Below are positions 13,549 through 30,863 of a stretch of DNA of 64,000 nt, one piece after another. The notes under the pieces are model-generated. The model was given only the letters and a program-made list of their open reading frames with translations, did not search any database and had not been told where the DNA came from. Within the stretch, counting starts at the first letter, position 1; every line of letters begins with the position of its first letter. This stretch comes from an uncultured Flavobacteriaceae bacterium. Its GTDB lineage: Bacteria; Bacteroidota; Bacteroidia; Flavobacteriales; Flavobacteriaceae. The stretch covers positions 124,001 through 188,000 of the forward strand of contig CANMFO010000003.1 in the NCBI GenBank assembly GCA_947497245.1. The letters are read 5' to 3'. The position numbers and the translations under genes are program-made.

Positions 13549-14163
13549 TCAACACCGATGGGACTTCACCCTTTCGCCTATGCCGAACACCAAGAACATA
13601 ACCATTTTAAACCTGTTCCCCAATTTCTTTCGAAGAATGGAAAAAGCTTTGGTTATCTGTGCTTCCACGGTCTTAATGGAGATGTTCAAATATTCGGAAA
13701 TCTCAATATTGGTCAGTCCTTCCTTTTTGCTAAGTATAAAGACCCTTTGACACTTGGTCGGTAGATTCGGTATTTCCAGCAATACCAACTCCATCATTTT
13801 ATCCAAGTCTGCGGTATCCGTGTTTTCAACTATTTCGTTCAGGGATTCCATATATTTCCGCTGCAACAGCAACATCGATTGGTTTTTCTGATAGGTGTTT
13901 ATGAATTCGTTGTAAACGGACTTGTACAGAAAGCTCTGGATGGAAAATTTAGGATACAATTTCCTGCGGAACTGCCAGGTCTTTAAAAATACACTTTGGA
14001 TAATATCTTGGGCCATCGCCTCGTCATTTATCAAGCTTAGCGCATAGGCATGTAGCCGCTTGTGATAGCAATCCAGTAAAAACATATAGGCCTTTTCTTC
14101 GCCCTTTTTTAAGGCTGAGATCAAAATTGAATTATCATGAAAATCAGGCGCTTCCAATTTCAT
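13549..14163 (-). CDS. ECF-type RNA polymerase sigma-70 factor
   Basis: A 204-residue extracytoplasmic-function sigma factor of the type that Bacteroidota pair with FecR anti-sigma factors to control SusC/SusD loci. Region 2 is at about residues 25-75 (LDCYHKRLHAYAL, then the DEAMAQDIIQSVFLKTWQ core-binding helix). Region 4 is at about 140-185 with the helix-turn-helix LTNIEISEYLNISIKTVEAQ. It is transcribed away from the divergent FecR gene with a 100-base gap, and the expected target is the SusC promoter downstream of fecR. The C-terminal tail is hydrophobic (MVMFLVFGIG), a little unusual. Assignment is firm. Confidence 0.93.
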   Translation of the reverse strand: MKLEAPDFHDNSILISALKKGEEKAYMFLLDCYHKRLHAYALSLINDEAMAQDIIQSVFLKTWQFRRKLYPKFSIQSFLYKSVYNEFINTYQKNQSMLLLQRKYMESLNEIVENTDTADLDKMMELVLLEIPNLPTKCQRVFILSKKEGLTNIEISEYLNISIKTVEAQITKAFSILRKKLGNRFKMVMFLVFGIGERVKSHRC

Positions 14164-14263
14164 ATCCGCAAAATAATACGAAAAACATAATGATTTTGAA
14201 AAAAATAGCTGAAAAAAATAAGGGTATTATAAATCGGCCCTGTAATATAATAAAGATTCGTAA

Positions 14264-15427
14264 ATGATGATCTCCCCAGAAATTGAAAATCGTATCGTAA
14301 AATTTGTGAATAAATCCGCCAATGCGGAGGATCTGGATGTTTTGGAGAAATGGATCCAAGAACCAGAAAACCAAACCGTATTTAAGGAATTCATCAAAAC
14401 CCACTTCGCGATCACAATGAGTTTGAGCAACCCTGATTCCGACGAGATTCGAGATCGATTGTTAAAGGAGATACGCAAGGAGAGATCGGCGCGCTACAAC
14501 GCTCCATTATATACCGTGCTCAAATACGCCGCCCTTGTTGTTTTTGTTCTCGGTCTGGGATATTTGTACCAGAACGGGTTGTTCGGTACTGCCTCGGAGG
14601 AGACGCTGATTCCCAAGGAGGACGCGATAACCCTCCAACTTGAAAATGGCAATATAGAGGTGATCAGTGCGGATGGTAGGACACAGGTGGTCGATTCGGA
14701 AGGAAACATTGTCGGTACCCAACAAGGTACGCGATTGGTCTATGACGAGGAGACGACCGTCGAAAAACTCGTTTACAATACTCTAAATGTCCCCAATGGC
14801 AAGAGGTTCGATGTTGTGTTGTCGGATGGGACCCATATCTTCCTGAACGCGGGGACCTCGCTAAAATATCCGATAAAATTTATCCAAGGGGAACCGCGCA
14901 AGGTATTTCTTGACGGCGAGGCGTTTTTTGATGTGACCACGGATGCGGAGCACCCATTTGTAGTAAATGCACAGGCATTGGATGTTACCGTTTTGGGGAC
15001 CAAGTTCAACATGGCCACCTATCGGGAAGACAGCGAATCCGAAGTGGTTTTGGTCGAGGGTTCGGTAGCGATGCATTCGGAGGAAGATGCGCCGGAAAGT
15101 GAGGGAACCGTCCTTCTACCGGGTTTCAAAGGCTCATACGATAGATCGGAGGGCACGTTTTCCACCCAAAAAGTGAATATTTCATTGTACACCTCCTGGG
15201 TTTCCGGAAATGTGATCTTCAGGAACGCCCCTTTTGAAAACATCATTAAAAAATTGGAGCGACTGTACAATGTGACCATTGTCAACAACAATGCACAACT
15301 GGCCAATGAAAATTTCAATGCAAGCATTGAAGTGGACAATGAGAGCATAGAGGAAGTACTGCACTACTTCAACAAGGTTTACGAAATAGAATACAGTATC
15401 GTGAACAACAAAATTATTATCGAGTAA
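14264..15427 (+). CDS. FecR family anti-sigma regulator
   Basis: A 387-residue inner-membrane regulator. The cytoplasmic N-terminal part (1-80) should bind the sigma factor. One membrane helix follows at about 84-103, then the periplasmic FecR domain (about 165-270, with the NVPNGKRFDVVLSDGTHIFL and LDGEAFFDV segments) and the C-terminal DUF4974-type domain (about 305-387). It takes the signal from the STN domain of the SusC protein and controls the sigma factor. It is divergent from the sigma gene and lies upstream of susC with 189 bases between. All expected parts are present, giving a complete trans-envelope signalling set. Confidence 0.93.
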   Translation: MMISPEIENRIVKFVNKSANAEDLDVLEKWIQEPENQTVFKEFIKTHFAITMSLSNPDSDEIRDRLLKEIRKERSARYNAPLYTVLKYAALVVFVLGLGYLYQNGLFGTASEETLIPKEDAITLQLENGNIEVISADGRTQVVDSEGNIVGTQQGTRLVYDEETTVEKLVYNTLNVPNGKRFDVVLSDGTHIFLNAGTSLKYPIKFIQGEPRKVFLDGEAFFDVTTDAEHPFVVNAQALDVTVLGTKFNMATYREDSESEVVLVEGSVAMHSEEDAPESEGTVLLPGFKGSYDRSEGTFSTQKVNISLYTSWVSGNVIFRNAPFENIIKKLERLYNVTIVNNNAQLANENFNASIEVDNESIEEVLHYFNKVYEIEYSIVNNKIIIE

Positions 15428-15535
15428 CCAAAAACCAAAAGACGATATGGGAAAATAATCCGAACAACAAGAACAGCACACCACATTCAAGATAACCCCA
15501 TAGGTGGAATCCAACCATAAACAGGGTTAAAAAAA

Positions 15536-15561
15536 CCGGAAAGTGCGGCAACACTTCCCGG
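15536..15561 (+). promoter_or_regulatory. Hairpin in the susC leader
   Basis: A 26-base inverted repeat between fecR and susC: CCGGAAAGTG and CACTTCCCGG with a 6-base loop and one A/C mismatch. It is not followed by a run of T, so it does not look like a simple intrinsic terminator. It lies about 55 bases before the susC start codon and could be a leader structure that sets the fecR/susC expression ratio, or a processed 3' end for fecR mRNA. Confidence 0.45.
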
Positions 15562-15616
15562 TAGTAAAATGTGGTCTAGCGAATACTAGATAACCACTAT
15601 TAAACACTTTAAAAGT

Positions 15617-18600
15617 ATGAAAAAACAAAGTAAGTCCAAGGGGGAGTCCCTTGGTGTATTAAAACTTGACTTAAAGATGAAGCTAACCATGCTTTTGATG
15701 ATTTCGGCCATGTTCAGTATACAGGCCAATAGCTATTCACAGGCAACAAAGCTATCATTGGACATGAAGAACGTAACGGTCGGTGCCGTAATCGATGAAA
15801 TTGAGGCCCAGACCGAATTCAACTTCCTTTTTAACACGAAAGTTGTTGATTTGGAGCGCGTGGTTTCCCTCAAGATAAGGAAGCAGACGATCGACAAAAT
15901 CTTGATTGCCCTGTTTCAAGGGACCAGTACCACCTATGAAATTGAAAATCGAAAGATATTGCTCTTTGAAGCTGCCGGGGACGAAGATCCGGACCAAGGA
16001 GCGGGAAAGGAAGAGGCCCAAAATCAGGCCCTCCAGGTATCGGGTACCGTTAACGACGACTTGGGCCCATTGCCAGGAGCCAGTATCGTGGTAAAGGGCA
16101 CGACCACGGGTACGACGACCGACTTTGACGGCAACTACACCTTGGAAGTACCCGATTCCGGGGCGATTTTGGTATTTAGCTATATCGGTTATACTACCCT
16201 GGAGATTCCCGTGAACGGGCAATCCACCATCAATGTGCTGATGAAGGAAGATGCCCAGGCATTGGAAGAAGTAGTGGTTACGGCCCTGGGCTTTGAGGTA
16301 AGGACCGATAAATTGGGCAGCGCGGTATCCAGTGTAAGATCGGCGGCACTCGTGCGATCGGGGGAAACTTCCGTCGCCAATGCGATTCAAGGTAAAATGG
16401 CCGGTGTAAACATCACCAGAAGTACCGGCGATCCCGGAGCGGGTTCCAATATAAGGATCAGGGGGGCCAACACCATTTTCGGAAGTACCCAACCCCTGAT
16501 AATTGTAGACGGAATACCCATCAACAATAACAATACCAGTGGCGGGGGAAGCAGCAGTACGGGAAATGGCACCTCCCAACAATCCCGTTTGAACGATATA
16601 AACCCTAACGACATAGAGACCCTACAGGTCCTAAAGGGCGCTTCTGCCGCCGCTTTGTGGGGATCCAGGGCATCAAATGGAGTGGTGGTGATCACGACCA
16701 AATCCGGAAAAAAAGGGTTTAGGGTCTCTTTTAAAAATACGGTTGCGATCGATGAGGTAAATGCCACACAAAAGTTGCAATCTACCTATGGACAAGGGCG
16801 AAACGGACTGTACAGGTCGGGCACGGAAATCCGATCTTGGGGCGACGAAATAGCGGCAAGATCCGGTGGCCAAGATACTTTTGACACCAGCGGAGGGCTT
16901 TTTGTGGGCGATCAGACCGGCAGAACGTACTATCCCGTTGCCAATGGAACGGCCGACAATCCGAGCGGCGGAAAGAATTCCAGGGAAACGTTCAATCAGA
17001 AAAACTTCGACCAGGTATTTGGTCAGGGAGTACTTTTGGAGCAATCACTGAGCATAAGTGCGGGAGACGATAAGAGCTCACTGTTTTTTAGCCTGGGAAA
17101 CACCGATCAGGAAGGGGTGATCAAAAACAATGATTATAAACGCCATACCGTGAATATCAGCGCTTCCAGAAAGTTCAACGACTATGTCCGTCTAAAACTG
17201 AAAGGGAAATACTCGAGGATCAGCGCCAACCGGATCCAACAAAATTCCAATGTGGCAGGGATACTTTTGGGACTTTATAGGACCCCTTCCGATTTTGATA
17301 TTGAAGACTATACCGGAACCTATGTCAGTGCTTCGGGTGCGGAAGCCACCGGACGGCACCGTGCCTATAGAAATGGCATCGGAGCAAGCAATAGGCCCCG
17401 TTACAACAACCCCTTGTGGACCACCAACAGGCAAAAGGCCCCGAACATTGTGAACAGGCATATTTATTCGGCCGATCTTGATATTTTTCCCGTCACCGGC
17501 CTGACCATTAAGTTAAGGGGAGGTGTGGATACCTACAATGACAAAAGATCGTACCTATACCCCATTGGGTCGGCCCGAACATCCACCCCACCGGTGACAA
17601 GGATAGATGGCAGTTTACTTTTTGATGACATCTCCGAGACCGAACTGAATTTTGATGCCATTCTGAAGTACGATACGGATATCGCGGAGAACATCAGTTC
17701 GTCGTTTGTTGTGGGATGGAATATCAACGATCGAAAGTTCAGTAGACAGACCTCTTATGGCAATGAGTTCATTGCTGATCGGGAAATATTCAACCTATCC
17801 AATTCCAGGGTTGTAGGGTCTGAAAATTTCATGAGCCACATCAGGTCCAATAGAGGCTATTCCACGGCCAATTTTGGACTGTTCGATCAATTGTACCTCG
17901 ATTTTTCCGGGACCATTGAGGCCGCATCGACCATTTCGGATTCATTCTTCTATCCTTCGGCGAGTGCCGCATGGCAGTTTTCAAACGCCGGCTTTTTTCC
18001 CGAGGAGGGTCTTATCAGTTTTGGCAAGGTGCGCCTCAGTTGGGGTAAAGTGGGTATCCAGCCCAGACCCTATGGCAATTCAACAAATTTCGAGGGAGAT
18101 TTCACCTACAATTCGGGCGTTGCCGGAGGCTTGAATTCCGTATCCAATGGCGGTGGATTGAGACTGGATAATCTGCTCGGAAACCCGGCGCTGAAACCGG
18201 AGATAAAAACAGAGACCGAAGCCGGTCTCGAACTGAGGTTTTTCAATGATCTGTTATCCACCAGTTTCACGTATTACACCAATAAGGTCAAGGACATCCT
18301 GCTCGAGATCGATACGGCTCCCAGCTTTGGATTTGAACGTTTTTACACCAACGGGGCCTCCATGGAAAACAAGGGGTTTGAATTTGAATTCAACGCGAAC
18401 TGGCTCCGGGGCAACGACAACTGGACATTTTCAACCTATGGGAACCTGGCCAGCAACCAAAATGAGGTCACCAGCTTACTGGGAGCCGATATCCAGCGCT
18501 TGACGGGCTTTGGAACAGGCGATTCCGTTGCAGCGGAGGGCGAGCAGATGGGAGCCATTTTCGGCGGGAAACTGCCTCGCGACGACAACGGCGACATTGT

Positions 18601-19228
18601 ATTGGATGAAAATGGATTCCCCGACGGGGAACCGGAATTTGATGTGATCGGTGACCCAAATCCGGATTGGACGGCCGGACTTGGTTTTAACGTAGGCTTC
18701 AAAAACCTCTCTATGAATGCGCTGTTCGAGCATTCCCATGGGGGCGATTTCTATGATATCACCCGACAAATAAACGCGAGGTACGGCAGGGCCGAGGTAA
18801 CGGGCAACCAAGTTACCATACCCACTGACGGCATTTTGGATTTTGATGGAAACACCTACGCCCAGGGCGAGGTGGTCCGAGGGAATCTGCACGACTTTGG
18901 AGGCGGGCAGGTACTTCTCAATGAAGCTTGGTACGATGACAACGGCGCGGACAACAGGGGGTTCAGCGAACTTTGGTTACAGGATGCCACCTGGACCCGA
19001 CTCAGGGAATTGTCCCTGACCTATTCCTTTGGGGAAAAGACGTTGGACAAATTGAAGTTGTCGGCAATGAGCATCGGGGTAACGGGAAGAAACCTGATAC
19101 TTTGGACAGATGTCATTGGAAATGACCCGGACAAGAACTTTGCGGGGGTCGGCAATTCTAGGGGATTGGACTACTATACGAATCCTTCGACGAAATCGTA
19201 CCTATTCAATTTTAACATAACCTTCTAA
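15617..19228 (+). CDS. SusC-like TonB-dependent outer-membrane transporter with STN signalling domain
   Basis: A 1203-residue outer-membrane receptor. Order: N-terminal signal region (about 20-42), STN secretin/TonB short domain (about 45-115) used to signal to FecR, a carboxypeptidase-like beta-sandwich (about 140-220), a TonB-box-like EEVVVTALG segment, the plug domain (about 230-350, with LKGASAAALWGSRASNGVV) and a 22-strand barrel ending in an aromatic residue (NFNITF). With SusD it imports an oligomer too large for porins. The STN domain ties it to the upstream sigma/FecR pair. The downstream genes encode peptidases, a D-aminoacylase and a racemase-like protein, so the likely cargo is a peptide or N-acyl amino acid rather than a glycan. 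Confidence 0.95.
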   Translation: MKKQSKSKGESLGVLKLDLKMKLTMLLMISAMFSIQANSYSQATKLSLDMKNVTVGAVIDEIEAQTEFNFLFNTKVVDLERVVSLKIRKQTIDKILIALFQGTSTTYEIENRKILLFEAAGDEDPDQGAGKEEAQNQALQVSGTVNDDLGPLPGASIVVKGTTTGTTTDFDGNYTLEVPDSGAILVFSYIGYTTLEIPVNGQSTINVLMKEDAQALEEVVVTALGFEVRTDKLGSAVSSVRSAALVRSGETSVANAIQGKMAGVNITRSTGDPGAGSNIRIRGANTIFGSTQPLIIVDGIPINNNNTSGGGSSSTGNGTSQQSRLNDINPNDIETLQVLKGASAAALWGSRASNGVVVITTKSGKKGFRVSFKNTVAIDEVNATQKLQSTYGQGRNGLYRSGTEIRSWGDEIAARSGGQDTFDTSGGLFVGDQTGRTYYPVANGTADNPSGGKNSRETFNQKNFDQVFGQGVLLEQSLSISAGDDKSSLFFSLGNTDQEGVIKNNDYKRHTVNISASRKFNDYVRLKLKGKYSRISANRIQQNSNVAGILLGLYRTPSDFDIEDYTGTYVSASGAEATGRHRAYRNGIGASNRPRYNNPLWTTNRQKAPNIVNRHIYSADLDIFPVTGLTIKLRGGVDTYNDKRSYLYPIGSARTSTPPVTRIDGSLLFDDISETELNFDAILKYDTDIAENISSSFVVGWNINDRKFSRQTSYGNEFIADREIFNLSNSRVVGSENFMSHIRSNRGYSTANFGLFDQLYLDFSGTIEAASTISDSFFYPSASAAWQFSNAGFFPEEGLISFGKVRLSWGKVGIQPRPYGNSTNFEGDFTYNSGVAGGLNSVSNGGGLRLDNLLGNPALKPEIKTETEAGLELRFFNDLLSTSFTYYTNKVKDILLEIDTAPSFGFERFYTNGASMENKGFEFEFNANWLRGNDNWTFSTYGNLASNQNEVTSLLGADIQRLTGFGTGDSVAAEGEQMGAIFGGKLPRDDNGDIVLDENGFPDGEPEFDVIGDPNPDWTAGLGFNVGFKNLSMNALFEHSHGGDFYDITRQINARYGRAEVTGNQVTIPTDGILDFDGNTYAQGEVVRGNLHDFGGGQVLLNEAWYDDNGADNRGFSELWLQDATWTRLRELSLTYSFGEKTLDKLKLSAMSIGVTGRNLILWTDVIGNDPDKNFAGVGNSRGLDYYTNPSTKSYLFNFNITF

Positions 19229-19242
19229 AGAACGTTGCAATC

Positions 19243-20634
19243 ATGAAAATATTCAAAATTAGTTCGATAGCTATCTTGCTCCTGTGCTCATGCCAGAGTA
19301 GCGTAGACGATATAAACGAGGATCCCAACAAGATAAGTACGGTTGACGGGAGCGCCATATTTACTGGGATACAGCTTGCGGATGTTGCGACCCAAATGGG
19401 TTTTTTGAACTGGGCCGGCGGCGTTAGTGCCGGTTATTTTGTCGGAGATGGTAGGCTCAGCACCATACAAAGTTACGCGTACAACAACACGGACTCGGAT
19501 ACCCCTTGGCAAAATATCTATGTGGGAGTGGTGAAGCAGGCCCACGAGATCAGAAGCGGCATCGAAGTGACCAATAAGGACTTTTTCTTTGGTGCATCAA
19601 AAGTATTGGAAGCCCATGCCATCGGCACGGCCACCAACATTTTTGGGGATGTGCCCTTTTCCGAAGCCGGGAATTCGGATTTTCCCAAGCCGCGATATGA
19701 CGGCCAACAAGAGGTGTACGGCAACCTGCAGAATCTTTTGGATGACGCCATCTTGGATTTACAGGCCTCTGGAATCTCGGGAGGCATTCAGGAAGACCTA
19801 TTTTTCGACGGGAACGCGGCGAACTGGATCAAAGCCGCATATACCTTGAAGGCCAGATTGTATATGGATGTCAGAGATTATCCAAATGCGCTCAGTGCTG
19901 CACAAAATGGAATCTCCTCCGTTTCGGAGACCATGCGATATGACCCCGTTACACCTGGTGTGGGAGGCGGGAACAATTTCCTGAACGAACTGCTGAACAG
20001 TTCCACTTTCGGGGGTGATATACGTTCCGAAGGCTCGTTCCTGATCGATTTGATCGGTGTGGATGCGTCCAGTAGAAACAACGCCAAAACCGATGAAACG
20101 GATAGGTTCTCTTATTACTACAATGGAACGGACATAAATATGGAGGGTATTGCGGCGGCGGACGAACCAATGAATCTAATTTCCCTTGAGGAGAACACCC
20201 TGATCTGGGCCGAGGCCCTGATCCGCTCCGGTGCCGGAAATTTTGATGCCGCCCTGAACAAATTGAACGAGCACAGGGCGAATTTAAGAAATGGCGAATT
20301 CTTTACGATTTCCACTGGAGTGTACGATGATTATGTAGAGGCCGACTTCACAAGTGGCGGGGTGGAAAACAGTGATGGCGTTCTTTCCAAAGAAGATGCC
20401 TTGTTGCGGGAGATCATTGAGGAAAGGTATGTGACCTTTTTTAACCAAATACTTGGATTCAACGATTTGCGCCGGATGAAAAAAGATCCGGTCGACCTGC
20501 AGGTGCCGGTGCCCTTCAATCAGGGCTCCCAACATCCCGAGCGCTTTCTATATCCCTTTTCGGAGGAGAACACCAATGGTGCAAATGTACCGGTGGTGGC
20601 CGATATATTTACCAAGACGACCATTAATCAATAG
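19243..20634 (+). CDS. SusD/RagB-like nutrient-binding outer-membrane lipoprotein
   Basis: A 463-residue surface lipoprotein (lipobox LCSC, C17) that caps the SusC barrel and captures substrate. It belongs to the SusD-like branch with the early FTGIQLADVATQMGFLNWAGG segment and TPR-like helices (about 60-240), and ends with a domain typical of the family (LREIIEERYVTFFNQILGFNDLRRMKKDP), where the RY and DLRR elements are diagnostic. The start is 14 bases after the susC stop, so the two are one transcript. The ligand is unknown; see the downstream hydrolases for context. Confidence 0.93.
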   Translation: MKIFKISSIAILLLCSCQSSVDDINEDPNKISTVDGSAIFTGIQLADVATQMGFLNWAGGVSAGYFVGDGRLSTIQSYAYNNTDSDTPWQNIYVGVVKQAHEIRSGIEVTNKDFFFGASKVLEAHAIGTATNIFGDVPFSEAGNSDFPKPRYDGQQEVYGNLQNLLDDAILDLQASGISGGIQEDLFFDGNAANWIKAAYTLKARLYMDVRDYPNALSAAQNGISSVSETMRYDPVTPGVGGGNNFLNELLNSSTFGGDIRSEGSFLIDLIGVDASSRNNAKTDETDRFSYYYNGTDINMEGIAAADEPMNLISLEENTLIWAEALIRSGAGNFDAALNKLNEHRANLRNGEFFTISTGVYDDYVEADFTSGGVENSDGVLSKEDALLREIIEERYVTFFNQILGFNDLRRMKKDPVDLQVPVPFNQGSQHPERFLYPFSEENTNGANVPVVADIFTKTTINQ

Positions 20635-20760
20635 GGATAGAAAATCGATCCGGGAAGAAGCGGGTGCAATTTTGGCAGGAAGGGGAGATTGGCGTGCCTT
20701 TGGAGCCACTCCATCGGAATCATTGATATTGTTTGGGTTAGTTGTGATCAGTTTTTTTCA

Positions 20761-20798
20761 AAGGAAGGCTGTTCCCGTCGTTCGGAACAGTCTTCCTT
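20761..20798 (+). promoter_or_regulatory. Strong hairpin between susD and the first M14 peptidase gene
   Basis: A 38-base inverted repeat of 15 pairs (one a G-U wobble) with an 8-base loop: AAGGAAGGCTGTTCC and GGAACAGTCTTCCTT. No T-run follows on either strand in the expected place, so I see it as a stable RNA stem rather than a standard terminator. It could protect the susCD message 3' end and lower expression of the downstream enzymes, as happens in other nutrient-uptake operons. The surrounding 20635-20962 region has no supported gene. Confidence 0.55.
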
Positions 20799-20962
20799 AA
20801 ACCAAACTGACCTAAAGCGAAAGCACCGGAAAACGACGTTGTGTCCCCTGGGGAAAGGGGAATGAACCAAACAATTTGCCGGAAAACCACCGTGATCAAA
20901 ATTCCAGTTTGCCGATGGGTCCTGTCCCCGAAGGCCCTTTTATCCAACCAATATCCTTTAAC

Positions 20963-22150
20963 ATGGCTTTGAAAAATCTTTCGTTCATATTCCTCTTGTT
21001 TCTGTTTTTCTCATGCAAATCGGAAAAAGGCTCAAAAGACCAGGGTGTTTTGGACAGGGTCCTTTTCGATACCCTGTTTCCAAGTGCCAGGTTGAACAAA
21101 GTCCAAAAAATAGGCGAGCACAGATATACAGCGTATGTCCTGCCCTCTTTTGAACCCGTGAACCAAAGCCCGTGGTTTGCATTTGGGCTTAGGGCCACTG
21201 AAAAAAAACAAATAGAATTGGTCTTGGACTACGGTCCCCACAAGCACCGGTATGTTCCCAAATTGAGTACGGACCGAGTCGATTGGAAACCCATGGATTC
21301 CTCCAAGGTCAAGATAGATTCCCTTCAGGGTAGGGCGACCTTGTTCCTGGACGTTTCACCCAAGAAATTATACGTTGCCGCCCAGGAAATAGAGACACCC
21401 CAGGATACATACCGTTGGATGGATGGGCTTTTGGACCGATCCCTTGAAATTAAAAAACAGCTGGCCGGAAAAACGGTACTTGACAACCACAACTATGTAT
21501 TGTCCCACGAAAGTGTGGGATCAAACCATGCCGTTGTTTTGGTGGCAAGGCAACATCCTCCAGAAATCCCTGGGGGCACGATTGGGTTTAAAAGCTTTTA
21601 CGAGACCCTTTTTTCCGATTCTCCCGAGGCACAAAGGTTCAGAAACCATTTTAACATCTATGCCTTTCCCCTTTTAAATCCAGATGGTGTGAGCATGGGC
21701 AATTGGCGGCACAACGCCAAAGGGGTAGACCTAAACAGGGATTGGGTCGACTTTACCCAGCCCGAAACACGGGCCGTAAGGCGCTTTCTGAACGCCAAAG
21801 CGGGGGAAGGCAAAAAATTCGTGTTCGCCATAGACTTTCACACCTCGTATTCGGGGCCGTACCTACTGGTCCTAGATTCCATCAATGAAACGAAAACCAG
21901 CAGAATCACGCCCCAATGGCTCGCCAATATAGAAGCTACCTCAGAATTTGAGGCAAATCCGAGAAGAAGAAATCAGGACCTTCCGTACTGCTACAACTAT
22001 TTTTTCAATGAATGGGGTTCCGAAGCGGTGACCTATGAGGACGGTGATGAGGTTGATCGGGAAATTATTAGGAAAAGGGCACAAGTATACGCCCGTGAAC
22101 TCATGAAAACACTTTTAAACAAAAAAAAGGATGGATCGCTCACAAATTGA
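20963..22150 (+). CDS. M14 family zinc carboxypeptidase, lipoprotein
   Basis: A 395-residue lipoprotein (lipobox cysteine C18, FFSCKS). The frame is open upstream to 20876, but the ATG at 20963 gives the signal peptide directly at the N-terminus. After a beta-rich N-terminal domain (about 30-160) comes an M14 catalytic domain. It has QHPPE (H198, E201 as zinc ligands), the NPDG and WRHNAKGVDLNRDW segments (substrate-binding N and R), FHTSYSG (H293 as third zinc ligand) and VTYEDGDEVDRE with the probable catalytic glutamate near the end. The family removes C-terminal residues from peptides or cleaves gamma-glutamyl-type bonds. It overlaps the next gene by 20 bases and resembles the second M14 gene at 26595. 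Confidence 0.9.
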   Translation: MALKNLSFIFLLFLFFSCKSEKGSKDQGVLDRVLFDTLFPSARLNKVQKIGEHRYTAYVLPSFEPVNQSPWFAFGLRATEKKQIELVLDYGPHKHRYVPKLSTDRVDWKPMDSSKVKIDSLQGRATLFLDVSPKKLYVAAQEIETPQDTYRWMDGLLDRSLEIKKQLAGKTVLDNHNYVLSHESVGSNHAVVLVARQHPPEIPGGTIGFKSFYETLFSDSPEAQRFRNHFNIYAFPLLNPDGVSMGNWRHNAKGVDLNRDWVDFTQPETRAVRRFLNAKAGEGKKFVFAIDFHTSYSGPYLLVLDSINETKTSRITPQWLANIEATSEFEANPRRRNQDLPYCYNYFFNEWGSEAVTYEDGDEVDREIIRKRAQVYARELMKTLLNKKKDGSLTN

Positions 22151-23702
22151 ACGTATCGTTTCGATTGTTTTGCTGTTGGCCATAGCCGCTTGTTCCCGGG
22201 AAAAGCTGCAAGCGGATATGCTTATTACCAATGGCATTGTTTATGATGGTACGGATGGGGCTCCAAAAAAGGTCGCCGTCGCGGTAAAGGGTGAACGGGT
22301 TATTTTCGTCGGGCCCAAAAGTTCGATTGAAATTGTTGCCAAAAAAACCATCGATGCTTCCGGCCTGGTCGTGGCCCCGGGTTTTATAGATCCCCATACC
22401 CATGCGGACAGGGAACTAAAAACCCCAGAAGGTTCGCACAATAAACCGTTCTTGTTCCAAGGGATAACCACGGTTGTGGTGGGCAACGACGGAGACAGCT
22501 TTTTCCCTACATCAAAGTTCAAGGAACGGTACGAGTCCCACGGGATAGGTACGAATGCCGTGTTGCTGGTAGGTCACGGAACCCTCCGTGAGCAGGTGAT
22601 GGGCAAAAGTGACAGGATCGCCAATGCAGGGGATATTGCAAAAATGCAACAATTGGTCCAAGAGGAAATGGATGCAGGGGCCTTTGGCATGTCGACGGGA
22701 CTGTTTTATGCCCCGGGAAGCTATTCCAACACGGACGAGGTGGTAGCCCTGGCCAAAACGGTGGCCAGGAACAACGGCATTTACGACACCCACTTGCGGG
22801 ACGAAAGTTCCTATACCGTCGGGCTGGTTCCTGCTGTAAAAGAAGCCATTGAAATCGGAAGGCAGGCAAAATTGCCCATCCATATTTCACATATCAAATG
22901 CTTGGGTGTTGATGTCTGGCATCAAAGTGCTGCCATTGTCGAATTGATCGAACAGGCACGGCAAGAGGGCATAGCGGTCACGGCCAATCAATACCCCTAT
23001 GATGCTTCGGCAACCGGTTTGAAATCGGCCGTGGTGCCCCGGTGGGCGGAAAGTGGCGGCAAGGATTCCCTGTTCCTTAGATATGCCGATCCAAGCATTG
23101 GAGAACGAGTGCTGCGAGAGACAAAGGCAAATATTGCCCGAAGGGGCGGGGCGGACAAACTGCTCATCGTAAAATGCGATACCACCTCCTTTTTTGGGAA
23201 AACACTTTTGGAAATATCTGAAATGTTGGGGAACACACCGGAAGAGGCAGTCTTCACACTTCTTAAAACCGGATATGTCCGGGTGGCATCCTTTAACATG
23301 GCCCCGGAGGACATTCGCAATTTTATGACGCAACCCTGGGTGGTCACCGGATCCGATGGAAATACCGGACACCCAAGAAAATATGGCTCTTTTCCGCGGA
23401 AATACCACAAATATGTGCAGCAGGAAAAAGTAATCGATATGGCGACCTTCATCAACAACGGCACCTCAAAAACAGCGGACATATTCGGAATCCCCGATAG
23501 GGGAAGATTGGTGGAAGGACATTACGCCGACATCATCGTCTTTGACCCCAAAACCTTTAAGGACAAAGCAGATTATACCGATGCATTTCAATTGGCGGAG
23601 GGATTGGAATACAGTATTATCAATGGACAAATGGTGATCGAGGACGGGAAATATACAAAAAGGTTGAGCGGGAAAGTATTAAGGAAAAAAACGGGACTAT
23701 GA
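22131..23702 (+). CDS. D-aminoacylase / N-acyl-D-amino-acid deacylase family lipoprotein
   Basis: A 523-residue amidohydrolase with an N-terminal lipobox (LLLAIAAC, C21), so it should act outside the cytoplasm. The D-aminoacylase family hydrolyses N-acyl-D-amino acids. Visible metal-site elements are H89/H91 (IDPHTHAD), H221 (DTHLRDE), H251 (IHISHIK) and the aspartate of VVTGSDGN. Where well-studied members have a metal-binding cysteine in GNCG, this one reads VVGNDGDSF (D120). The usual ends of the fold are present: an early beta-sandwich (LITNGIVYDGTDG) and a late GRLVEGHYADIIVFDP. It overlaps both neighbours, the preceding M14 gene by 20 bases and the following racemase-like gene by 4. Confidence 0.9.
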   Translation: MDRSQIERIVSIVLLLAIAACSREKLQADMLITNGIVYDGTDGAPKKVAVAVKGERVIFVGPKSSIEIVAKKTIDASGLVVAPGFIDPHTHADRELKTPEGSHNKPFLFQGITTVVVGNDGDSFFPTSKFKERYESHGIGTNAVLLVGHGTLREQVMGKSDRIANAGDIAKMQQLVQEEMDAGAFGMSTGLFYAPGSYSNTDEVVALAKTVARNNGIYDTHLRDESSYTVGLVPAVKEAIEIGRQAKLPIHISHIKCLGVDVWHQSAAIVELIEQARQEGIAVTANQYPYDASATGLKSAVVPRWAESGGKDSLFLRYADPSIGERVLRETKANIARRGGADKLLIVKCDTTSFFGKTLLEISEMLGNTPEEAVFTLLKTGYVRVASFNMAPEDIRNFMTQPWVVTGSDGNTGHPRKYGSFPRKYHKYVQQEKVIDMATFINNGTSKTADIFGIPDRGRLVEGHYADIIVFDPKTFKDKADYTDAFQLAEGLEYSIINGQMVIEDGKYTKRLSGKVLRKKTGL

Positions 23703-25240
23703 AAAAAGTAGATGTACTTATTGCAGTTTTTGCACTGCTGTTGATCGTTGGGTGCAAAGAGGGCCAAAAGGAAGGGGATGTTGCCCAACGGGAAACCGGA
23801 AAGGGAGATATGGTGAGGACCATCATCGAGGATGAAGGAAGTTTCTATCATATCGATTTCGGCAATTATCCAAGCGACGACCAAAGCCTTCCCATCGGGG
23901 TATTCGATTCGGGTATAGGAGGCCTTACCGTGCTTAAGGCCATTGTCAACTACGACGAGAATGAAAATGGAACACACAAAACTGGGGGTGACGGCATATT
24001 GGATTTCGGGAAAGAGTCCTTTATCTATCTGGGGGACCAGGCCAATATGCCCTATGGGAACTATTCAAGGGAAAATAAGATCGACCTCTTGAACGAACAT
24101 ATTATCAAAGACGCCCAGTTCTTGATGGGCAACAGCTACTATTCCGATGTGCAGGACACAACGGCCAATGGCGACAAACAGGCGGTCAAGGTGTTGATAA
24201 TCGCCTGCAACACGGCAACGGCATATGGCAAGGAACATATTGAAGCGTTTTTGAAAAAAGCAAAGTTAGATCTAAAGGTGATAGGTGTTATAGATGCCGG
24301 AGTCAGGGGAGCTCTGGAAAGTATTGAAAAAGAGGAGGATGCCATCATCGGTGTACTGGCTACAGAGGGTACGGTAGCGTCAAAGGGCTATCAAAATACC
24401 ATTGTAAAGTTTAAGGAAGAACTGGGTTATTCCGGGAACATCGAGGTATTTTCCCAAGGAGGGGTCGGCATCGCCGAGGCTGTGGACGAAGACCCGGACT
24501 ATTTTGACCGAAACCTTAGAAAGCCACGCAAAGAATACAAAGGACCGGGATTGTCCGGAAATGTAAAGATCGACAAAACCCTGTTCGACATTTACAATTT
24601 TGATTTCGACCAGGGCAAAATGTTATGCGATTCCGAAAATAGCGACGATTGTTCCATACTTCAGATCAACGATGCGGAAAATTATGTGCGCTATCATTTG
24701 GTGACCCTGTTGGAACAAATCAGAAAGTCCGGTACCACCAACCGATTAAAATCCATCATTTTGGGCTGTACCCATTACCCTTACATGACCGATGAGATTG
24801 AGGCGATTTTGAAAGAACTGTACCAGTATCAAGCGAAAGACGGTACGTATTTCTACCAGAAGTTTATGGCAAGGCATATCCAATTGATAGACCCAGCCGT
24901 GGACACGGCTAAAGAATTGCACGAATATTTAAAAAATGAGGCCTTGTTCAATCCCAAAGGGAATATCATGGACAGCGAATTCTATATAAGTGTCGCCAAT
25001 CAGGACAATCCAAATGTCACCACCGATAGCGAGGGCCGCTTTCCCTACGACTATAAATATGGAAGAAAAGCAGGCGAGATTCAGGAATATGTCAAGGTGG
25101 TTCCATTTAGCAGGAAGAACATATCGAATGAGATCCTGGACCGTTTTCAAGAGCAGCTTCCGTACGTGTACCAACTCATGCGGAATTTCAACCAAGCTAA
25201 TGGAAAGACACGGCATTTGGCCTTGGACAGTAAAATTTAA
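23699..25240 (+). CDS. Exported glutamate/aspartate racemase-like lipoprotein
   Basis: A 513-residue lipoprotein (lipobox LIVGC, C19) containing the complete active-site pattern of the glutamate racemase (MurI) fold: VFDSGIGG (D70, S71), GDQANMPYGNYS (111-122), IACNTATA with the first catalytic cysteine C170, GVIDAGVRG, and LGCTHYPYM with the second catalytic cysteine C357 and H359. Cytoplasmic MurI is about 265-285 residues; this protein is nearly twice that, with an insertion around 265-330 and an extra C-terminal domain of about 100 residues. Export and size make a cell-wall synthesis role unlikely. It overlaps the D-aminoacylase gene (ATGA) and precedes a glutamate-type symporter, so periplasmic conversion of D-Glu or D-Asp to the L form is the inferred role. 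Confidence 0.88.
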   Translation: MKKVDVLIAVFALLLIVGCKEGQKEGDVAQRETGKGDMVRTIIEDEGSFYHIDFGNYPSDDQSLPIGVFDSGIGGLTVLKAIVNYDENENGTHKTGGDGILDFGKESFIYLGDQANMPYGNYSRENKIDLLNEHIIKDAQFLMGNSYYSDVQDTTANGDKQAVKVLIIACNTATAYGKEHIEAFLKKAKLDLKVIGVIDAGVRGALESIEKEEDAIIGVLATEGTVASKGYQNTIVKFKEELGYSGNIEVFSQGGVGIAEAVDEDPDYFDRNLRKPRKEYKGPGLSGNVKIDKTLFDIYNFDFDQGKMLCDSENSDDCSILQINDAENYVRYHLVTLLEQIRKSGTTNRLKSIILGCTHYPYMTDEIEAILKELYQYQAKDGTYFYQKFMARHIQLIDPAVDTAKELHEYLKNEALFNPKGNIMDSEFYISVANQDNPNVTTDSEGRFPYDYKYGRKAGEIQEYVKVVPFSRKNISNEILDRFQEQLPYVYQLMRNFNQANGKTRHLALDSKI

Positions 25241-25249
25241 ACTGGGAAT

Positions 25250-26551
25250 ATGAAAAAACTTGCACTACACTGGAAAATATTACTGGGGATGCTTTTTGGG
25301 GTCATCGTTGGCTCGCTGATGGCCCATTTTGATGGCGGGAAGGAAATCGTCCAGGATTGGATAAAACCCTTTGGTAAAATCTTTATCAATTCCTTGAAAT
25401 TGATAGCCATTCCGTTGATTCTGGCAGCGCTCATAAAAGGAGTGTCCGATTTAAAGGATATCTCAAAGCTTTCCAAAATGGGGGGGAGGACCATAGGGAT
25501 CTACATCGCAACTACCGTAATGGCCGTCTCCATAGGCTTGCTTTTGGTCAATATCATAAAACCGGGAAACTCGATTACCGAGGCCACCAGAACGGAAATG
25601 GTCGGAAACTATACGGAAAGTACGACCCAATTCAAGGAAACGGCCAAGACACAGAAAGAGGCCGGCCCGTTGAAACCCTTGGAGGATCTGGTGCCGGAGA
25701 ATATTTTCAGTTCGGCGACGAGCAACCGCAATATGCTACAGGTGATCTTCTTTGCTGTTTTTTTTGGCATCGGTTTGATATTGATTCCAGAGGGAAAAGG
25801 GAAAACGGTCAAGAGTTTTTTTGATGGCTTTAATGAAGTCATCCTAAAAATGGTGGATCTGATAATGCTGGCGGCACCCTATGGTGTGTTTGCGCTATTG
25901 GCGGCCCTCGTGGTCGAATCTCCAAGTCTGGACCTGTTCAGGGCATTGGGATGGTATGCGCTTACCGTGGTGATCGGTCTGCTCCTAATGATCATGGTCT
26001 ACACCCTATTGGTCTTTATTTTTACCAAAAAGACACCCAAATTTTTTATAAACGGGATTTCCCCGGCGCAATTGCTGGGGTTTTCGACCAGCTCAAGTGC
26101 CGCTACCTTGCCGGTTACCATGGAACGGGTAACCGAACATCTGGGCGTGGAAGAGGAAGCCGCAAGTTTTGTGCTGCCCATAGGTGCCACGATCAACATG
26201 GACGGCACAAGCCTGTACCAGGCGGTGGCCGCCCTATTCATAGCGCAGGCATTTGGGATAGATCTGGATTTCCATACGCAGTTGGGGATCATTGCCACAG
26301 CTACACTGGCATCGATCGGTAGTGCGGCCGTGCCAGGGGCCGGGATGGTCATGTTGGTCGGTGTACTGGGCTATGCAGGGATACCCGAAGCGGGCTTGGC
26401 ACTTATTTTTGCCGTTGATCGGCCCCTGGACATGTGCCGAACCGCCGTCAACGTAACGGGCGATGCCGCCGTTTCGATGCTGGTCGCAAAGTCAATCGGA
26501 AAATTGGGAGCGCCAAAAATCAAGAACTGGGACGATCATTATTCCGGTTAA
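25250..26551 (+). CDS. Dicarboxylate/amino acid:cation symporter (DAACS, GltP/GltT type)
   Basis: A 433-residue inner-membrane symporter of the glutamate/aspartate transporter fold. The diagnostic elements are the serine-rich hairpin 1 (FSTSSSAATLPVTM, about 281-294), the TM7 motif NMDGTSLYQ, the hairpin 2 segment GSAAVPGAGMVML and the TM8 motif DRPLDMCRTAVNVTGD, whose second D and R/C/N residues contact the substrate carboxylates. DAACS members take up L-Glu, L- or D-Asp or C4-dicarboxylates with Na+ or H+. The gene starts 9 bases after the racemase-like gene, which points to an acidic amino acid as cargo. Confidence 0.93.
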   Translation: MKKLALHWKILLGMLFGVIVGSLMAHFDGGKEIVQDWIKPFGKIFINSLKLIAIPLILAALIKGVSDLKDISKLSKMGGRTIGIYIATTVMAVSIGLLLVNIIKPGNSITEATRTEMVGNYTESTTQFKETAKTQKEAGPLKPLEDLVPENIFSSATSNRNMLQVIFFAVFFGIGLILIPEGKGKTVKSFFDGFNEVILKMVDLIMLAAPYGVFALLAALVVESPSLDLFRALGWYALTVVIGLLLMIMVYTLLVFIFTKKTPKFFINGISPAQLLGFSTSSSAATLPVTMERVTEHLGVEEEAASFVLPIGATINMDGTSLYQAVAALFIAQAFGIDLDFHTQLGIIATATLASIGSAAVPGAGMVMLVGVLGYAGIPEAGLALIFAVDRPLDMCRTAVNVTGDAAVSMLVAKSIGKLGAPKIKNWDDHYSG

Positions 26552-26594
26552 GGCAGACCACTGGTTAAATGGATAATTAATTAAATTGATACTC

Positions 26595-27845
26595 ATGAAA
26601 AATTCGCTTGAACGATCCGAAAACGAAAACTGGAAGTATTTGGCAGGGGTACTTGCCGTTCTCCTTATCAGTTGCGGCACCCCCAAAAAAGTGGTATTTG
26701 AAGAGCCCGTGGACACAAAAAGCAGAAAGATAACCGATCAAACAAAAAAAAGTTATGAATTCAATGCCCTGGGACTATGGATCAGCAACGAATTCGATGC
26801 TGCCCGCTTAAACCATGCGGCCCAGATCAACGACTCCACAGTGATGCTACGTTTTGATCCGGAGAATGTCCCCATCAACAAGAGCCCTTATTTTGCCTTT
26901 ACCACCTGGTCAAAAGAGCCCAAACAAATCTATTTTGGATTCCAGTACCCGGATGGATTTGAACATCGGTACAGACCAAAAAAGAAGGAAAACAACCGTT
27001 GGGTGGCCATCGATTCCATGGATTTGATCAAAAAAGAGGATGCCCTATTTCTTAAGTTCCAGACCGGACCTGAACCACAGACAATAGCGGCCCAGGAGAT
27101 CAACTCGTCCGAAGATGTGCGGCAATGGTATGTCGCGAACATTGTTGGCAAAAACAATTTTGTCAGGTTGCGGAGCGTGGGTACATCGCAATTGGGGAGA
27201 AACCTTCCCGTGCTGGATATCTATCACGGCGACCCAAAGGGCAAACCTATTATCGTACTGTTGACCCGGCAGCACCCCCCAGAGGTCACCGGGTACTTTG
27301 CCTTTCAAAACTTTCTGAAGGCGATCGTAGCGGAATCGGCACTTTCCCGTGCGTTTTTAAGTAAGTACAGGGTGTTGGCATTTCCGATCCTAAACCCCGA
27401 TGGGGTGGACCTGGGGCATTGGCGGCATAACGCCAATGGGATAGACCTGAATCGCGATTGGGCGAAATACAGACAACCGGAAGTAAGGAATGTGGTATCG
27501 TTTATCGACAAAACCAGTAAAAAGGATAGGGGCAAAATTGTTTTGGGCCTGGATTTTCACTCGACCTACGAGGATGTTTTTTATACCAATACCGTCAGGG
27601 AGAAAACTACCCTGCCCGGTTTTATCGATGATTGGTTCGAGCTGTTGGAAAAGAACATTCCCGATTACAAGGTAAACGAGCAGGCCGCAAACAGCACCAA
27701 ACCGGTTTCAAAGGGATGGTTCCTATACGGACGGAACGCCACGGCCATAACCTATGAGATCGGTGACCACACCCCTAGGGACAGGATCGAGGAAATCGGG
27801 ACCAAATCGGCAAACGGCATGATGGAAATCCTTTTAAAAAAATGA
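26595..27845 (+). CDS. M14 family zinc carboxypeptidase, lipoprotein (second paralogue)
   Basis: A 416-residue lipoprotein (LLISCGT, C27). The upstream TTG at 26586 would only add three residues, so the ATG at 26595 is chosen. The same architecture as the M14 gene at 20963: a beta-rich domain followed by QHPPE (H227, E230), NPDG, WRHNANGIDLNRDW (N285, R286), FHSTYED (H322) and ITYEIGDHTPRD. The two proteins match in motif order and spacing but differ through most of the N-terminal domain, so they are diverged paralogues, perhaps with different cleavage positions. It lies 43 bases after the symporter gene and closes the locus. Confidence 0.9.
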   Translation: MKNSLERSENENWKYLAGVLAVLLISCGTPKKVVFEEPVDTKSRKITDQTKKSYEFNALGLWISNEFDAARLNHAAQINDSTVMLRFDPENVPINKSPYFAFTTWSKEPKQIYFGFQYPDGFEHRYRPKKKENNRWVAIDSMDLIKKEDALFLKFQTGPEPQTIAAQEINSSEDVRQWYVANIVGKNNFVRLRSVGTSQLGRNLPVLDIYHGDPKGKPIIVLLTRQHPPEVTGYFAFQNFLKAIVAESALSRAFLSKYRVLAFPILNPDGVDLGHWRHNANGIDLNRDWAKYRQPEVRNVVSFIDKTSKKDRGKIVLGLDFHSTYEDVFYTNTVREKTTLPGFIDDWFELLEKNIPDYKVNEQAANSTKPVSKGWFLYGRNATAITYEIGDHTPRDRIEEIGTKSANGMMEILLKK

Positions 27846-30517: not shown

Positions 30518-30863
30518 CAAATCTTCCCTTGCCCTGTATGGCCTTAATTTTGAGGAGGGAACGGGCCCCTTCCAATTGGGAACGGTCCCGGAGCGCCCTT
30601 TGTTTCATATGCCTTTCGGCACAAAGAAGAAGCAAGGACTCTCAAAATTTGATATTCGAACGTAAAAATATTGGACACTTTACGTAAAGTTATTTTACAT
30701 TTTTTGAATGCTCTTAAAAAATAATCCACATAATAACTTAATGTTCAACGACTTATATCTTTGGCATACATTAAGTGTTAAAAAGATGGAGTGCCCTGAC
30801 TCCAAATCGGCAATTATCGATCCATCCAGCAAGTTTGCCATAGCATCGATCAAATAGAAAACT
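30518..30863. other. Intergenic region between the two ABC permease genes
   Basis: 346 bases without a supported gene. A Bacteroidota -7 box, TATCTTTG, lies at 30756-30763, about 100 bases before the second permease. A TTG at the right upstream distance is not clear, so it is at best half a promoter. The presence of this spacer suggests that the two permease genes are separately transcribed. Confidence 0.35.
30756..30763 (+). promoter_or_regulatory. Candidate -7 promoter element (TATCTTTG)
   Basis: Matches the Bacteroidota TAnnTTTG consensus upstream of the permease gene at 30864. The -33 TTG is not evident at the expected 19 or so bases upstream, so this rests on one element only. Confidence 0.3.

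Follow-up and report, generated by a model that had tools for sequence, protein, structure and literature searches.

D-amino acids derived from bacterial walls persist for a long time in organic matter. The described systems closest to the one reported here are the nutrient loci of Bacteroidota in which a SusC/SusD (SusCD) pair is controlled by an ECF sigma factor, a FecR-type anti-sigma factor and an STN domain. One study (PMC3400609, PLoS One 2012 7:e41204) predicted from genome context that TonB-dependent transporters take up N-acyl-D-amino acids in a gammaproteobacterium, and that those of Pedobacter heparinus, a member of the Bacteroidota, take up peptidoglycan. We analysed a locus of nine genes at positions 13549 to 27845 of a 64,000-nucleotide stretch of DNA (the window) from an uncultured Flavobacteriaceae bacterium. 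It has the same SusC, SusD, sigma and anti-sigma factors and lipoprotein hydrolases as these nutrient loci, but carries peptidase, amidohydrolase and racemase genes; Pfam and NCBIfam revealed no carbohydrate-active enzyme among the nine proteins, and the locus does not qualify as a polysaccharide utilisation locus. Taken together, protein sequences, gene neighbourhoods and structure models indicate that it is probably a SusCD nutrient-capture locus for peptides containing D-glutamate (D-Glu), most likely peptidoglycan stem peptides (L-Ala-gamma-D-Glu-diamino acid-D-Ala). In the following, DAA denotes the D-aminoacylase-family gene, RAC the racemase-like gene, and M14a and M14b the two M14 lipoproteins; the features are:

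13549..14163, minus strand: ECF-type sigma factor, divergent from FecR (PF04542/PF08281 over cut-off; TIGR02985 117 bits, under its cut-off of 126.4)
14264..15427, plus strand: FecR-type anti-sigma factor (PF04773, PF16344)
15617..19228, plus strand: SusC/RagA TonB-dependent transporter with N-terminal STN (TIGR04056 621 bits, cut-off 368; STN, CarbopepD_reg_2, Plug)
19243..20634, plus strand: SusD-like_2 lipoprotein (PF12771 84 bits, cut-off 27)
20761..20798, plus strand: predicted 15-bp RNA hairpin between SusD and M14a (region 20735-20835: minimum free energy -35.4 kcal/mol, z -4.0 against shuffles)
20963..22150, plus strand: M14a metallopeptidase lipoprotein (PF00246; motifs RQHPPE, DFHT, TYE; start at the ATG at 20963)
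22131..23702, plus strand: DAA, D-aminoacylase-family amidohydrolase lipoprotein (PF07969, Amidohydro_3; PDB relatives; AlphaFold2 model; Foldseek)
23699..25240, plus strand: RAC, glutamate-racemase-fold lipoprotein (TIGR00067 7e-33; phmmer to glutamate racemase structures; AlphaFold2; Foldseek)
24206..24208, plus strand: RAC Cys170 in the ACNTA motif, aligned with one MurI catalytic Cys in 52/52
24767..24769, plus strand: RAC Cys357 in the GCTHYP motif, aligned with the other MurI catalytic Cys in 52/52
25250..26551, plus strand: DAACS/SDF symporter (PF00375 413 bits; motifs NMDGT, DMCRTAVN)
26595..27845, plus strand: M14b metallopeptidase lipoprotein (PF00246; motifs; start at the ATG at 26595)

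All nine open reading frames of the original prediction, which had proposed capture and racemisation of D-acidic amino acids, are present at these positions, and Pfam and NCBIfam returned the families it had named for all nine proteins. Its description of the genes as mostly overlapping or within tens of bases of each other applies from M14a through M14b (M14a and DAA overlap by 20 bases, DAA and RAC by 4; RAC and the symporter are 9 bases apart, the symporter and M14b 43, counted from the ATG at 26595) and to SusC and SusD (14 bases). It does not apply to the other three junctions: the divergent ECF and FecR genes are 100 bases apart, FecR and SusC 189, and SusD and M14a 328 (counted from the ATG at 20963), the last gap containing the hairpin. 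The SusC protein, scoring over its cut-off, is followed by a SusD-family lipoprotein, as in SusCD pairs; the source genome of 5.25 Mb has 14 matches to PF07980 (SusD_RagB). SusD, M14a, DAA, RAC and M14b each have a signal-peptide-like start ending in a lipobox-like Cys, as judged by eye.

Judged from its sequence and model, RAC looks like a glutamate-racemase-fold protein that appears to be exported. It matches Asp_Glu_race with 31.9 bits (cut-off 31), and all 23 PDB sequences matched by phmmer at E <= 0.001 are glutamate racemases. An AlphaFold2 model based on 52 sequences gave a pLDDT of 87.7 and a pTM of 0.85. When this model was compared with the PDB by Foldseek, the first 41 chains were glutamate racemases and an aspartate racemase came 42nd, with a best E-value of 2e-14 and TM-scores by target length of up to 0.76, indicating a racemase fold. 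D70, S71, Y119, G120, C170, T172, C357, T358 and H359 are invariant in the 52 aligned sequences and N171 is present in 51, so that RAC has the two catalytic Cys residues of MurI glutamate racemases (in CNT and GCTH), the initial Asp-Ser and the His after the second Cys. The GCTH motif is found in 80/80 and CNTA in 78/80 of the homologues from the scan of named genomes described below.

Fold and catalytic residues are thus common to RAC and MurI, whereas RAC, with 513 residues, is more than 200 residues longer than the four MurI controls (265-290) and scores below the MurI family cut-off. The additional residues form inserts near positions 86-102 and 144-159, several more between about 265 and 345, and a C-terminal extension. 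A further difference is a conserved pair, Cys310/Cys318 (51/52), which would suit an exported protein. In line with predicted export, a hydrophobic 11-mer (threshold 1.9) lies ahead of the catalytic core in 71/80 RAC homologues and in 0/4 MurI controls. Inspected by eye, the nine misses comprise weaker signal peptides (L071, L087, L089, L091, L092, L101) and starts that are cut off (L030, L066, L097). A strict lipobox pattern is present in 52/80, and many of the others end in an apparent signal-peptidase-I site. We rejected the idea that RAC is the only glutamate racemase of the genome, as a separate housekeeping MurI is encoded elsewhere in it (224.9 bits, over the family cut-off).

The original prediction would have fallen had the gene group been confined to this genome, and it proposed co-occurrence as the check; the group recurs, with DAA within five genes of RAC in 47 of the 80 loci introduced below. 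RAC is matched in 11/299 Flavobacteriaceae genomes, namely the window's own, eight with full-length copies (53-75% identity), G006 with a broken copy and G069 with a short one (42%). The latter (L021) was left out as an ordinary racemase because of its size, giving a kept set of 10/299. All ten also match DAA, nine with more than 700 bits and G006 with a 444-bit fragment. Among the other 289 genomes DAA exceeds 700 bits in five (G024, G032, G150, G251, G292) and is matched in 28 at the search's own level. The copy in G006 (L020) is decayed, with DAA matching up to residue 399 and RAC reduced to residues 404-513; long open frames remain there for SusC, SusD, SDF and an M14b-type gene.

Across 395 genomes of the phylum eight match RAC, the window's own included, and these belong to four family groups. 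Scanning named genomes with a single-sequence query gave no match; an alignment query yielded 513 relatives, of which the best 80 (loci L022-L101, some on short contigs) were examined. By title, these best 80 of 513 loci comprise 39 from Flavobacteriaceae, 18 from Sphingobacteriaceae, 6 from Cyclobacteriaceae, 3 from Saprospiraceae, 2 from Chitinophagaceae and others. As seven of the eight full-length RAC genomes of the Flavobacteriaceae set recur among them, the two sets are not independent. Named strains with both RAC and DAA include Flagellimonas flava DSM 22638 (L045), Hyunsoonleella aestuarii KCTC 23449 (L031) and Polaribacter porphyrae NBRC 108759 (L039). A chance grouping of the nine genes was rejected because the group recurs in other genomes and RAC and DAA co-occur.

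For each of the 80 loci we counted neighbours up to five genes away from RAC. Their labels come from blastp against one or two representatives per label, most of these named by Pfam/NCBIfam; as the loci share ancestry, the counts are not independent events. Besides DAA, RAC is accompanied by SusD (40), SusC (37; 45 over whole loci, or 46 at a looser E-value), M14 (25, or 24 depending on cluster membership), S12 serine hydrolase (22), gamma-glutamyltranspeptidase (GGT) family (17), FecR (17), fn3 lipoprotein (14), 2,4-diaminopentanoate-dehydrogenase-like (9), FGase-like (8), penicillin amidase (6), ECF (5), S9 (5) and M20 (3) genes. As for FGase, the label is weak: of its copies, that in L019 is over the Pfam cut-off and that in L053 is not, and L079:2-775 has no NCBIfam match. 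DAA adjoins RAC in 43/80 loci, directly upstream in 34 and directly downstream in 9 (44 adjacent copies, one locus having two), and this occurrence on either side implies that the pair survived rearrangement. On the RAC tree, there were too few independent pairs for a test of DAA against SusC (median p 0.375). All nine genes occur in window order in L032, L042 and L045, where ECF, unlike in the window, lies on the same strand, and where ECF and FecR are 22-31% identical to those of the window.

M14 and S12 are nearly exclusive of each other: in 81 rows, window included, 25 have M14 only, 21 S12 only, one both and 34 neither. Rows with a SusD-like_2-type protein (n=28) have M14 only in 23, S12 only in 2, both in 1 and neither in 2, and those with a SusD_RagB-type protein (n=13) have S12 in 12 and neither in 1, a pattern suggestive of two transport-peptidase modules that share a single DAA-RAC core. 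As to the less familiar neighbours, a single fn3 domain is the only Pfam match in the L012 copy of the fn3 lipoprotein (e.g. L023:11542-12846), and the 2,4-diaminopentanoate-dehydrogenase-like gene (L027:6294-7289 and eight other loci) scores 240 bits against a cut-off of 400; its product might act on the stem-peptide diamino acid.

The PDB relatives of DAA are D-aminoacylase, N-acyl-D-glutamate deacylase and the carbohydrate deacetylase OngB. Its AlphaFold2 model (pLDDT 91.8) returned only members of the D-aminoacylase subfamily as the first nine Foldseek chains, with TM-scores by target length of 0.84-0.88, indicating the fold of D-aminoacylase and N-acyl-D-glutamate deacylase (1M7J, 3GIP). 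PDB searches with two DAA fragments gave no relative for one of 137 residues and a match for the second. H89, H91, H221, H254, K256, Y288, D409 and R416 are invariant in 51 aligned copies from 47 loci. These residues include the metal-binding His residues and, mapped by hand, the catalytic D409 and the alpha-carboxylate anchors K256, Y288 and R416, which DAA has in common with both D-amino acid enzymes and with OngB. DAA differs from the former two in being a lipoprotein, in having Asp for a metal-ligand Cys and in a longer loop near the Arg295 position. Arg295 of the Bordetella N-acyl-D-Glu deacylase binds the gamma-carboxylate, as described in a passage of PMC12017989. In DAA Trp305 aligns with it and Arg304 is one residue off, this residue being Arg in 36/51 and Lys in 5/51 copies; at most, this suggests Glu specificity of DAA. 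A more distant DAA paralogue is encoded elsewhere in the window's genome (G000:C8:145120-146718).

The two peptidases represent two strict M14 subtypes, distinguished by the residue 15 positions ahead of the catalytic Glu, which is Lys in 22/22 M14b rows and Tyr in 17/17 M14a rows (window included in both). We located this site by counting and take it to be the C-terminal specificity determinant of carboxypeptidases. M14b matches the murein tripeptide amidase MpaA only weakly (21 bits, cut-off 157). The symporter has the SDF family match, the NMDGT motif and the Arg in DMCRTAVN expected of DAACS proteins, this Arg being presumably the acidic-substrate residue. Its 259.9 bits against the NCBIfam GltP equivalog fall short of the cut-off of 638, and its substrate is therefore not assigned by family.

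The original prediction had allowed for D-Glu or D-aspartate (D-Asp), and the D-Asp branch is disfavoured. Profile and fold rank both place RAC with the glutamate type, and D-Asp is already a substrate of mammalian glutamate transporters, which bind D-Glu only at millimolar affinity (PMC6482001, eLife 2019 8:e45286). We set D-Asp aside as main substrate on these three grounds, Asp-type genes near RAC in L060 and L031 nonetheless. Accessory genes (GGT, dipeptide-epimerase-like, MurQ) likewise favour D-Glu. In L044, a metagenome-assembled genome, RAC follows a MurQ gene over cut-offs (329 bits against 302, TIGR00274), and in L034 (Yeosuana marina) it follows a gene that is 89% identical to the former and cut by the contig end; GH3, GH18, FAD-oxidase and NagB/PIG-L genes come next in both (the L044 copies being assigned by clustering), with a NagX-like gene in L034. 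A relative of the DgcA and L-Ala-D/L-Glu epimerase genes, scoring under both cut-offs, is part of the cluster in L041, L047 and L062. The nearest PDB relative of the L041 copy is 3iji (354 bits), which is filed as muconate cycloisomerase and which we take to be an epimerase structure. Elsewhere in the window's genome lies another dipeptide-epimerase-like gene (G000:C1:127959-128978, 36% identity). L110, in a genome without RAC, has DAA followed by M20, S58, S12, S9 and D-Ala-D-Ala dipeptidase-family genes. The MurQ, dipeptide-epimerase-like and D-Ala-D-Ala dipeptidase-family genes in these few loci shift the likely substrate towards peptidoglycan stem peptides.

The route outlined in the original prediction, from import through trimming, deacylation and periplasmic racemisation to uptake of L-Glu, fits most of these findings for D-Glu; its D-Asp variant is less favoured, and its substrate range narrows towards peptidoglycan. 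What the sequences themselves establish is the gene content, its conservation, an export-type N-terminal segment in most RAC homologues, the intactness of the catalytic residues and the predicted folds. In the order of events that we infer, from induction and substrate to each enzymatic step and the direction of racemisation, the substrate would be sensed by the STN-type SusC, which would signal through FecR to the ECF sigma factor and induce the locus. SusCD would import the peptide to the periplasm, where M14a and M14b would trim it and DAA would remove the acyl group (alanyl or acetyl) from D-Glu. Exported RAC would then convert D-Glu to L-Glu outside the inner membrane, and the DAACS symporter would take up the L-Glu. 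Racemisation ahead of uptake makes sense, since mammalian transporters of the glutamate family bind D-Glu poorly. More generally, we propose tentatively, and with slightly less than even confidence, that Bacteroidota have an exported, often lipid-anchored branch of glutamate racemases which serves nutrition rather than wall synthesis, turning D-Glu of foreign or self peptidoglycan into L-Glu outside the inner membrane for ordinary symporter uptake within a SusCD system dedicated to murein stem peptides.

Several observations weigh against a peptidoglycan-directed D-Glu locus. The evidence for peptidoglycan comes from six loci of about three kinds, L110 without RAC being among them, and the window locus has none of these markers; nor did Pfam and NCBIfam find a muramidase, amidase, NlpC/P60 or GGT in it. 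Genes of the Asp type occur near RAC, with aspartate-racemase-family and S58 peptidase genes after RAC and GGT in L060 (13366-15263) and a beta-aspartyl-peptidase-like gene in L031. Against glut_race TIGR00067 RAC scores 114.1 bits, below the equivalog cut-off of 146.65, for which reason we call it racemase-like and not MurI, and the inserts keep its TM-scores by query length at just 0.31-0.41. The control for export is weak, as it consists of four MurI proteins with short leaders, one reaching 1.67, while the RAC failures reach 1.85, and in the predicted periplasmic location the catalytic thiol pair would need to remain reduced. DAA also scores below curated NCBIfam cut-offs, has no strict counterpart of Arg295 and has Asp120 in 51/51 copies in place of the Cys metal ligand, which we take to be Cys96 in A. 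faecalis D-aminoacylase. PpOngB, from the same amidohydrolase subfamily, deacetylates only an oxidised amino sugar and was inactive on the N-acetyl-D-amino acids tried, as reported in part of PMC12017989 (JBC 2025), a precedent for this subfamily leaving amino acids altogether. Coupling of the genes is not strict: just 14/80 loci have SDF no more than five genes away from RAC, and 33/80 are without DAA. Ten Sphingobacterium loci (L083, L085-L087, L090-L093, L097, L098) have RAC without DAA, M14, S12, GGT or SDF in the stretch examined, the neighbours in nine of them reading by eye like dnaX or rRNA methyltransferase genes. Conversely, L111 has M14, SusC, SusD, dehydrogenase and DAA genes, and L115 has SusC, SusD and S12 with a more distant DAA (35% identity), both without RAC, implying that racemisation is not obligatory. 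Finally, the Fisher p values for RAC-DAA co-occurrence in the Flavobacteriaceae genomes (2e-15 at the 700-bit level, 3e-10 at the search's own level) are optimistic: they come from related genomes, from a 700-bit level set once the scores were known and from a DAA profile made of RAC neighbours.

Of the other explanations, the one that survives best, though we consider it unlikely, is that the substrate is poly-gamma-glutamate or another gamma-glutamyl compound, from which M14 and GGT would release gamma-linked Glu, part of it D, for conversion by RAC. The GGT-family genes near RAC, 16 of 17 with the TTHxS motif, point in this direction (the L079 copy is over the NCBIfam cut-off), and the invariant Lys of M14b would suit an acidic C-terminal residue if the site has that role in specificity. 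However, GGT is lacking from the window locus, the L025 copy is below the NCBIfam cut-off for its type (307 against 358 bits), the MurQ, dipeptide-epimerase-like and D-Ala-D-Ala dipeptidase neighbours would be left unexplained, and an N-acyl-D-amino acid deacylase would have no obvious role. That deacylase would instead be the key enzyme, with the peptidases as accessories, if dissolved organic matter supplied a small N-acyl-D-glutamate (with an acetyl, formyl or fatty acyl group) as the substrate, which we regard as quite unlikely. DAA is the commonest partner of RAC, FGase-like (weakly labelled), penicillin-amidase/PvdQ-like and M20 genes lie nearby, and uptake of this kind is predicted beside the gammaproteobacterial D-aminoacylase in the main text of PMC3400609. 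Yet M14 or S12 hydrolases accompany RAC in 46/80 loci, and a SusCD importer would be unusual for very small solutes.

It is very unlikely that common folds mislead and that DAA and RAC have unrelated substrates. The substrate of PpOngB, as given in that part of PMC12017989, as well as the length of RAC and the missed curated cut-offs would agree with such a scenario, but the racemase catalytic residues are invariant, as are the carboxylate anchors of DAA (shared, however, by OngB), and racemase, acidic-amino-acid-type symporter and GGT recur round one gene. That RAC runs in reverse, supplying D-Glu for signalling or for editing of the envelope outside the inner membrane, is extremely improbable. 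Racemases are reversible and the ten Sphingobacterium loci have RAC without these partners, but the full loci combine hydrolases and uptake under ECF/FecR/SusC control. Downstream of the locus, at 28100-33275 of the window, two tandem open reading frames read by eye like FtsX-type ABC permeases.

Compared with known systems, the proposed D-Glu peptide locus has the conversion of D-Glu to the L form in common with the DgcN-DgcA and L-Ala-D/L-Glu epimerase routes, and an epimerase-like gene is even found in three RAC clusters. These routes presumably act on the N-acylated or dipeptide form inside the cell, whereas the racemase predicted here is exported and of the type that acts on the free amino acid; the known D-Glu routes that we met in this work all act inside the cell. 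For Bacteroidetes, dgcN is reported from the Mariana Trench in a section of PMC12363236. The prediction in PLoS One 2012 7:e41204 resembles the window locus in placing TonB-dependent uptake beside a D-aminoacylase, but the word racemase is absent from its main text, unlike the RAC-containing locus. Among the matches listed by a full-text literature search, which left subscription literature mostly outside, no title or abstract described a glutamate racemase that is exported or a SusCD locus containing such an enzyme. If borne out, export would give glutamate racemase, a textbook enzyme of the cytoplasm, a new location, and the exported form would mark genomes able to eat murein peptides. We rate as the new part the predicted exported glutamate-racemase-fold branch at the core of an otherwise known type of SusCD locus.

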